64,000 bases of DNA from Methanogenium sp. S4BF (lineage in GTDB: Archaea; Halobacteriota; Methanomicrobia; Methanomicrobiales; Methanomicrobiaceae). Positions 50,502 through 51,817 of the stretch are shown here, one piece after another. Where the stretch lies: positions 2,105,940-2,169,939 of the forward strand of contig NZ_CP091277.1 in NCBI RefSeq assembly GCF_029633965.1, given 5' to 3'. Made by a program: the position numbers and the translations under genes. Each line of letters opens with the position of its first letter. Position 1 is the first letter of the stretch. Below the pieces are notes generated by a model. It was not told the origin of the DNA, did no database searches, and saw only the letters and a list, made by a program, of their open reading frames with translations.

Positions 50502-50802
50502 AGGTCACCGAATATGCGGGTTGCTCTTTCTCCGGCAGCTGCGGTATGTCATATCATTCTCTTTCTTTTTTGGCAGAGTTCCGGGTTCTGCAGCAAAGCA
50601 TTTTTTATTGATTCCAAAATCTCTCTAAAAAAAGCATTTACAGCTCTGCGGGACGGAGATCTGCCGGCAGCAACAGTACTTCTCCTTTGATCGTATCATG
50701 TATCATGCATGGCCGGCCGGGTGAGATGTCTGGCTGAAACCCGACGATTTGGATGACTATGCAGATGAAAACAGGCATACGGGAGATGGGTGCGATGTGT
50801 CA

Positions 50803-51126
50803 AGTTCCACTCTTCCACCTCGTTTCCACCTAAATTGGGCAAAAAGTGGAAACAAAACAATGAGCATATTGGGGTTTATTCTTGTAAAGAGGGTTTTGTA
50901 TAGATATATGTACAGATGTTACAGGAGTTTTCCACCCAAATCAGATATCATTCAGCGATTTGGTTTCCTGTGCGGATGGTAGTGGGGGTATGTGTGATCC
51001 TGTGGAAAGTGGAAATGAAATTGAGAAATCGCCTCTCCGCCATAAGATGTCTGTTTCATTAGCATATATGGCTCTAAATGAGTGGAAAACAAAGTGGGAA
51101 TGAGTGGAAAAGTGGAAACAAAGAAG
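50803..51126. repeat. Cluster of TGGAAA repeats resembling archaeal origin recognition boxes
   Basis: Within an 800-base intergenic region (50502-51246) at least nine copies of a short element sharing the TGGAAA core occur in both orientations. Plus-strand copies: AGTGGAAACAAAA (50845-50857), TGTGGAAA (51001-51008), AGTGGAAATGAAA (51008-51020), AGTGGAAAACAAAG (51081-51094), GAGTGGAAAAG (51102-51112), AGTGGAAACAAAG (51111-51123). Minus-strand copies: GGTGGAAACGAGG (50818-50830), GGTGGAAGAGTGGAAC (about 50803-50818), GGGTGGAAAAC (50927-50937). The GTGGAAAC(A/G)AA pattern resembles the archaeal Orc1/Cdc6 mini-ORB. An AT-rich stretch (about 50860-50930) lies between inverted copies. No cdc6 gene is in the window. 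Confidence 0.55.
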
Positions 51127-51246
51127 GCAGGAAACCCCCCTCCTCCCTGCATTCCCGACCTCCCGGGACTGTGAGCGTTCATCCGTCTCTCTGGGGCACT
51201 GCATATGATAGATCTACCAGTCGTATTCTTTGCCCGTTTGTATGTA

Positions 51247-51817
51247 TCAGGATTTAAGCATCACCAGATCATCGGAAAATCCGTTCTGCATGAGGTCAAG
51301 TCGCTCATGATGGCGGGTGACCGTGGTCCCGGATATATAGGGGATATCGAAGGGAAAGAGCGCAGGGTCGTTTTGCAGTAATACGGCCCCGGAGTTTGAG
51401 CTCCTTGAGTATCAGTCCGGCTTCGATGGTCTTTCCCAGCCCGACCTCATCGGCGAGCAGGTAACGGATACTCTCATTTTCCAGAGCACGGGTCAGGGCG
51501 GTGATCTGGTGGGGGAGGGGGATGACCCGGGATGCGAGCGGGGCGAGGAGCATACCGTCCGGTGCTGCGGGTTCTGCGAGGAGGTCTGCGATGCGGGCGG
51601 CGGTTGCGAGGTAGCGGATGTGATAAGATGTGACTTCGTCTGCTCTGGTGGCTTCAATGGGTATGATGGTCTCTTTGGGCACGGTGACGACGGTATCGTT
51701 TGTCTGGAGCCAGATCCGGCAGGTGACGCTCCCCCATAGCTCCTGCTCTTCAAGGAGTCTGCAGGGGGACTGGTGAGTGGTGCTGTAGAGCCATTCGTCG
51801 GTATTCTCAGAATTCAT
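51247..51817 (-). pseudogene. Truncated SNF2/DEAD-type helicase remnant
   Basis: 170 residues open from ATG 51817. Residues about 1-130 read like the start of a large SNF2-type helicase (CRLLEEQELWGSVTCRIWLQ; VIPLPHQITALTRAL; LLADEVGLGKTIEAGLILKE), reaching motif I (GLGKT) and then losing family character at about 51370. In another frame the last 120 bases encode a protein-like end (FDIPYISGTTVTRHHERLDL ... LMLKS), so an internal deletion seems to have joined two parts of one or two genes. Such helicases are common in defence islands. It is very unlikely to be functional. Confidence 0.7.

Follow-up and report, generated by a model that had tools for sequence, protein, structure and literature searches.

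A repeat array in a decayed rep gene of Methanogenium sp. S4BF: probable relic of a replication origin carried within rep by an integrated plasmid-like element

Introduction

Small integrated elements with a primase-polymerase of arCOG07809 are described in the main text of PMC4158269, with Mpal_2033 of Methanosphaerula palustris as an example, and the Rep of plasmid pRN1 is assigned there to a different arCOG. The word “iteron” does not occur in that main text, and its passages on repeats do not deal with an array in the arCOG07809 gene. Within the open literature searched, no other paper names arCOG07809; papers beyond it may exist. Regarding origins that lie within an initiator gene, the RepA_N plasmid pSK41 possesses an origin of repeated Rep boxes located inside rep (PMC5703833).

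Here, a cluster of short repeats in Methanogenium sp. S4BF was analyzed together with its homologues in other elements. The window, meaning the whole stretch of 64,000 nucleotides under study, corresponds to positions 2105940-2169939 of a host contig of 2,513,916 bp. In the initial annotation, the cluster was proposed as a possible chromosomal replication origin carrying ORB-like sites for Orc1/Cdc6. The results presented below indicate that it most likely is the relic of an iteron array, derived from the 3' end of a rep gene that belonged to an integrated element and has decayed.

Results

It can be observed from the motif count that GTGGAA occurs 10 times within 313 bp (50805-51117), eight of the ten units reading GTGGAAA exactly. 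The initial annotation had reported at least nine copies of an element with a TGGAAA core, which is correct for GTGGAA but not for exact TGGAAA, present in 8 copies within 50823-51118. The two orientations and the AT-rich stretch that it described are both borne out (Table 1). The remaining 63.7 kb of the window contain 25 copies of GTGGAA, equivalent to 0.126 expected per 320 bp, and the Poisson probability of ten copies in 320 bp, for a place fixed in advance, is approximately 2e-16. With ten units found against about 0.13 expected, chance clustering is indeed very unlikely, as had been judged from the letters. Furthermore, the left and right ends of the cluster form a 14-bp inverted repeat. 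The consensus consists of GTGGAAA followed by variable bases, with GTGGAAACAAA in two copies only. The likeness to the archaeal mini-ORB, suggested earlier, is partial.

Table 1. Features of the repeat cluster and of the rep remnants, in window coordinates
Feature	Coordinates	Strand	Basis
rep 3'-part remnant (end of winged-HTH region and start of linker), in-frame TGA	50641..50853	+	tblastn, profile match, translation
Iteron array, 10 GTGGAA units in two orientations	50790..51130	+ (sense of former rep gene)	motif count; homologous arrays elsewhere
Three left iterons TTCCAC (50805, 50813, 50824)	50805..50829	-	motif positions
Iteron GTGGAA	50846..50851	+	motif position
AT-rich stretch, 33% GC, flanked by iterons; possible unwinding region (putative function)	50853..50925	.	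base composition
Frameshifted remnant: linker and start of C-terminal Cys-cluster domain	50903..51204	+	tblastn residues 931-1034 (L011 Rep); translation
Iteron TTCCAC, context resembling other copies (GGAGTTTTCCACC)	50930..50935	-	motif position
Two adjacent iterons (51002, 51009)	51002..51014	+	motif positions
Right iterons (51082, 51104, 51112) with degenerate unit GTGGGAA among them	51082..51117	+	motif positions

The array lies in the remains of a rep gene. In a tblastn search with the 1072-aa Rep of locus L011, the upstream remnant aligned to residues 844-913 with 61% identity, and a profile match with one TGA was obtained at 2156580-2156717 in contig coordinates. The translation of the downstream remnant ends in RDCERSSVSLGHCI followed by a stop. 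Altogether, about 190 codons are left, interrupted by stops and a frameshift. The region counts as intergenic because the rep gene there has decayed; the “long intergenic region” of the initial annotation is accurate for this reason alone. A short ORF at 51305-51817 of the window has a weak SNF2-related match, below the Pfam cut-off, and is possibly a truncated gene.

A DNA search with the array identified further copies in the same genome at 0.805, 0.834 and 1.745 Mb. Of the six other genomes searched within the genus, five contained copies, and none of the 53 genomes from outside the genus did. The copy at 1.745 Mb (1.7447 Mb) is situated within an open rep ORF of 1072 codons (L011 8461-11679), and the arrays at 0.805 Mb, at 0.834 Mb and in the window lack a rep body. 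At E <= 0.001, the genome contains three near-complete reps, together with only the small fragment in the window. Close to the copy with rep at 1.744 Mb, a second and truncated GTGGAA cluster is located at L011 7882-7935. In the orthologues of the window locus, L046 and L050, the array is present and in part degraded, and rep has decayed. Between the window and L046, identity amounts to 91% in the iterons and approximately 81% in the spacers, the spacer count having been derived by hand from the identity of the array match (Fisher p 0.034, for one pair out of three). Selection on the solo array of the window was rejected as an interpretation, this difference being too weak.

The Rep family displays a common domain order, namely an AEP primase, an MCM-like AAA+ domain, a winged HTH, a disordered linker and a C-terminal Cys cluster, the Cys positions of which are conserved across the family. 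It was detected in 64 of 97 good genomes sampled evenly across Methanomicrobiales. Of 246 stretches confirmed in public genomes, 80 were retained as rep loci, and named records with rep loci belong to Methanomicrobiales genera or to unplaced Euryarchaeota bins. The N-terminal domain is ordered in the AlphaFold model of the L088 Rep (mean pLDDT 74), which also has an AAA+ region and, at the C-terminus, a small domain. Its HTH is composed of helices 651-663, 670-677 and 681-689 with two short strands, and its linker, residues 754-899, is unstructured. In Foldseek searches, the whole chain was best matched by MCM helicases, at low query TM-scores of 0.2-0.26, and the N-terminal 340 residues had a single match at E <= 0.001, the primase RepB'. 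A sequence search of the PDB with Rep profiles returned nothing convincing, a Pfam search of two Reps gave nothing above threshold and no RepA_N match, and in viral contigs the match to Rep was limited to the primase half.

An integrase-family gene accompanies rep in at least 18 of 87 loci and a cdc6-like gene in at least about 19 of 87, both counts being lower bounds because the fetched flanks differ in length. When terminal overlaps were sought as a sign of circular copies, none of the short contigs closed. Two further neighbours recur. One is a protein of approximately 167 aa (MADF...) without a Pfam or PHROG match, present in 18 loci around rep or cdc6 genes of these elements (e.g., L110 13081-13584); the other, 120 aa long and of unknown family, is encoded close to rep in 20 of 87 loci and immediately upstream of it at L014 1369-1731.

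In most intact reps, approximately 7-12 short repeats are present in the linker-coding DNA, facing both ways and falling into several reading frames. Most linker regions are dominated by one word of 6 or 7 bases, nearly uniform within an element and different among elements; GTGGAA, GTGAAA, GTGCAA, TGCAAA, GCTGAA, GCTGTA, GCTGCC, GCTGTC, TGCGGA, ACTTCA and TGCAGG were all found in this role. A cross-count of 11 arrays against 11 words was almost diagonal, the arrays having been picked as clear examples and the words GTGCAA and TGCAAA overlapping. The linker regions exceeded all ten of their shuffles in 76 of 87 cases, a lenient test with ten shuffles per region and a set in which several loci are duplicate copies. 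Exact units fell into at least two reading frames in 49 of 57 open reps, and 50 of these reps had units of both orientations. Since the units are spread over frames and orientations, the constraint acts on the DNA, and the repeat signal in the rep linkers is a DNA-level one. About 11 of the 87 linker regions, e.g. those of L014 and L066, show no clear array. At L014 4030-4490, an intact open rep at 0.436 Mb with an adjoining cdc6 has no evident iteron array, and at L060 7160-8190 and L067 10313-11280 the Rep linker is enlarged by acidic GATGAT repeats with no clear iteron array.

The part of Rep that varies most closely with the repeat is the winged HTH. Across 24 elements, repeat similarity followed HTH identity after the other domains had been removed (partial r 0.418, permutation p 0.002); for the AAA region the relationship was weak (partial r 0.148, p 0.03), and with the primase and the Cys-cluster domain no correlation was observed. 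Columns 681, 685, 693 and 694, located in the third helix of the modelled HTH or just past it, were among those that tracked the repeat best; several higher-ranked columns are trivial because the array itself encodes that part of the linker. By listing the helices beside the motifs, a rule was noted that connects a helix residue with the base following TG, in the pairs K-G, Q-A and H/Y-C. It agreed in 32 of 37 cases overall, in 19 of 22 held-out loci fetched after the rule had been noted (permutation p 0.001) and in 14 of 15 at a stricter threshold (p 0.028), when scored with [GC]TGN[AC]A, a pattern picked once the motifs had been seen, and with permutations that ignore relatedness. The two QK helices that were scored pair with T, and K-G represents one lineage. 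Relatedness was controlled with a tree of the Rep part preceding the HTH and a sign test: in eight independent pairs differing in helix class, the base followed the helix in five, opposed it in none and stayed the same in three (p 0.0625). These comparisons are suggestive of one recognition-helix residue setting one iteron base with relatedness controlled, and Rep itself probably reads the repeats.

Discussion

We consider, with a probability of roughly 0.8, that the cluster in the window is a relic of a replication origin that lay within the rep gene of an integrated, plasmid-like element. Rep is encoded by a single gene in the intact relatives, and its linker-coding DNA doubles as an array of approximately 7-12 repeats. 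The winged HTH would bind these repeats, and its recognition helix would set the one base that follows TG (Lys for G, Gln for A, His or Tyr for C). The bound Rep may then form a helicase at the AT-rich stretch, and its primase would start synthesis. At the window locus, most of rep has been lost, and the decayed codons with their ten GTGGAA units remain. Sequence comparison lends fair indirect support both to intact arrays being origins and to their binding by the HTH. Each element possesses its own version of the repeat and the helix, by which sibling replicons may be kept apart. It is possible, and we offer it tentatively, that this family of archaeal Reps diversified through paired changes of one helix residue and one iteron base, giving rise to many mutually orthogonal origins within rep, and that solo arrays such as the one in the window are retained as decoys titrating the Rep of incoming siblings.

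Iteron arrays of plasmids can also serve autoregulation, copy control or partition. The repeats might accordingly be Rep-binding operators or partition sites and not the origin itself, a reading open to the tracking of the repeat by the HTH, which shows only that Rep probably reads it. We regard this as rather unlikely. The repeats are located near the 3' end of rep, distant from its promoter, and the commonest neighbours of rep included no recognisable partition gene.

The origin of the chromosome, main or secondary, bound by Orc1/Cdc6, as first proposed for this cluster, is a very improbable alternative. The cluster does surround an AT-rich stretch, its repeats partly resemble the mini-ORB, and a cdc6 paralogue stands near rep in some related elements. 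However, in a genome-wide search the best Orc1/Cdc6 match was at 1958723-1959832, and strong matches were found only at 0.080, 0.439, 1.283 and 1.959 Mb, the last being the best and the other three weaker paralogues; all are outside the window, where the initial annotation had already noted the absence of a cdc6/orc1 gene. Canonical ORBs (TTCCASTGGAAAYRAAGGGG) lie approximately 198 kb from the cluster, on either side of the main orc1 at 1.957-1.962 Mb. At <=3 mismatches, their pattern gave 6 matches in the genome versus 0 for the reversed control, five of them flanking orc1 (1957017-1961916) and one at 2001622 (2.0016 Mb), with none in the window. GC skew, sampled in separate stretches (about 410 kb in loci, plus the window) rather than as a full cumulative curve, was mostly negative between approximately 0.8 and 1.9 Mb; from 1.951 Mb through zero to approximately 0.5 Mb it was mostly positive, and single stretches deviate from this pattern. 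From the change of sign at approximately 1.95 Mb the turn is placed at orc1 (1.958 Mb), and the sampled skew displays no turn at 2.157 Mb. Moreover, a genome-wide scan revealed clusters of the GTGGAA motif at four other places, and the array of the window sits inside a decayed rep gene. Homologous arrays consist of unrelated motifs, and the likeness to the mini-ORB is therefore probably a coincidence. What is retained from the first proposal is its general type: a repeat cluster of initiator sites, most likely part of a replication origin.

Still harder to credit is a non-autonomous transposable element that moved the array on its own by means of terminal inverted repeats. The inverted repeat at the cluster ends and the solo arrays at several places of the genome would suit it, but adjoining rep sequence has been kept at the solo arrays, and wherever the element is intact its array lies within rep. 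Finally, repeated words as a product of protein-level repeats or low-complexity coding bias can be dismissed, since the units occupy several frames and both strands of open ORFs and persist in the window despite the broken frame, even if some linkers, such as those with GATGAT in L060/L067, do contain acidic protein repeats.

With the relic of an in-rep origin as the preferred reading, a suspected chromosomal origin becomes evidence for a widespread and little-studied replicon family in methanogens. It also provides a testable residue-to-base rule for the specificity between initiator and origin, and it may be of use in choosing replication modules for genetic tools in Methanomicrobiales. For origin finders, it serves as a warning that relics of Rep iterons can mimic ORB clusters.

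Comparison with Known Systems

Archaeal oriC regions with ORBs share with the cluster in the window the inverted and direct repeats around AT-rich DNA; the window cluster differs in its repeat, in having no GGGG string and in having no adjacent orc1/cdc6. Small circular plasmids of Methanothermobacter, namely pMTBMA4 and its relatives, and pMTB1 match the Rep from approximately 450-470 to 829 with 25-26% identity, whereas the primase half of Rep is unmatched; no comparable array was seen near the 3' end of their reps. As in the family described here, pRN1 of Sulfolobus combines primase, helicase and wHTH in one Rep and has its origin near the 3' end of rep (PMC4234260). However, a stem-loop located downstream of the gene serves as the origin there, and the authors found no iterons (PMC4234260).

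Compared by description, the Rep family matches the published arCOG07809 elements, and the window itself keeps a remnant only. According to the main text of PMC4158269, those elements occur in the same order, Methanomicrobiales, have the same sequence of primase, helicase, HTH and Zn finger, and in some cases carry integrase genes. A difference concerns the helicase, which is placed in superfamily I in that text (PMC4158269), whereas the structure matches of Rep here are to MCM/AAA+.

In terms of mechanism, the closest analogy is offered by the RepA_N plasmid pSK41, in which the origin boxes lie within rep, the part of rep overlapping the origin encodes a linker, and a winged HTH is the binder (PMC5703833). 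The bacterial protein is unrelated, has its HTH at the N-terminus and recognizes four boxes (PMC5703833), whereas the Rep described here is an archaeal primase-helicase with approximately 7-12 boxes near the 3' end of its gene.
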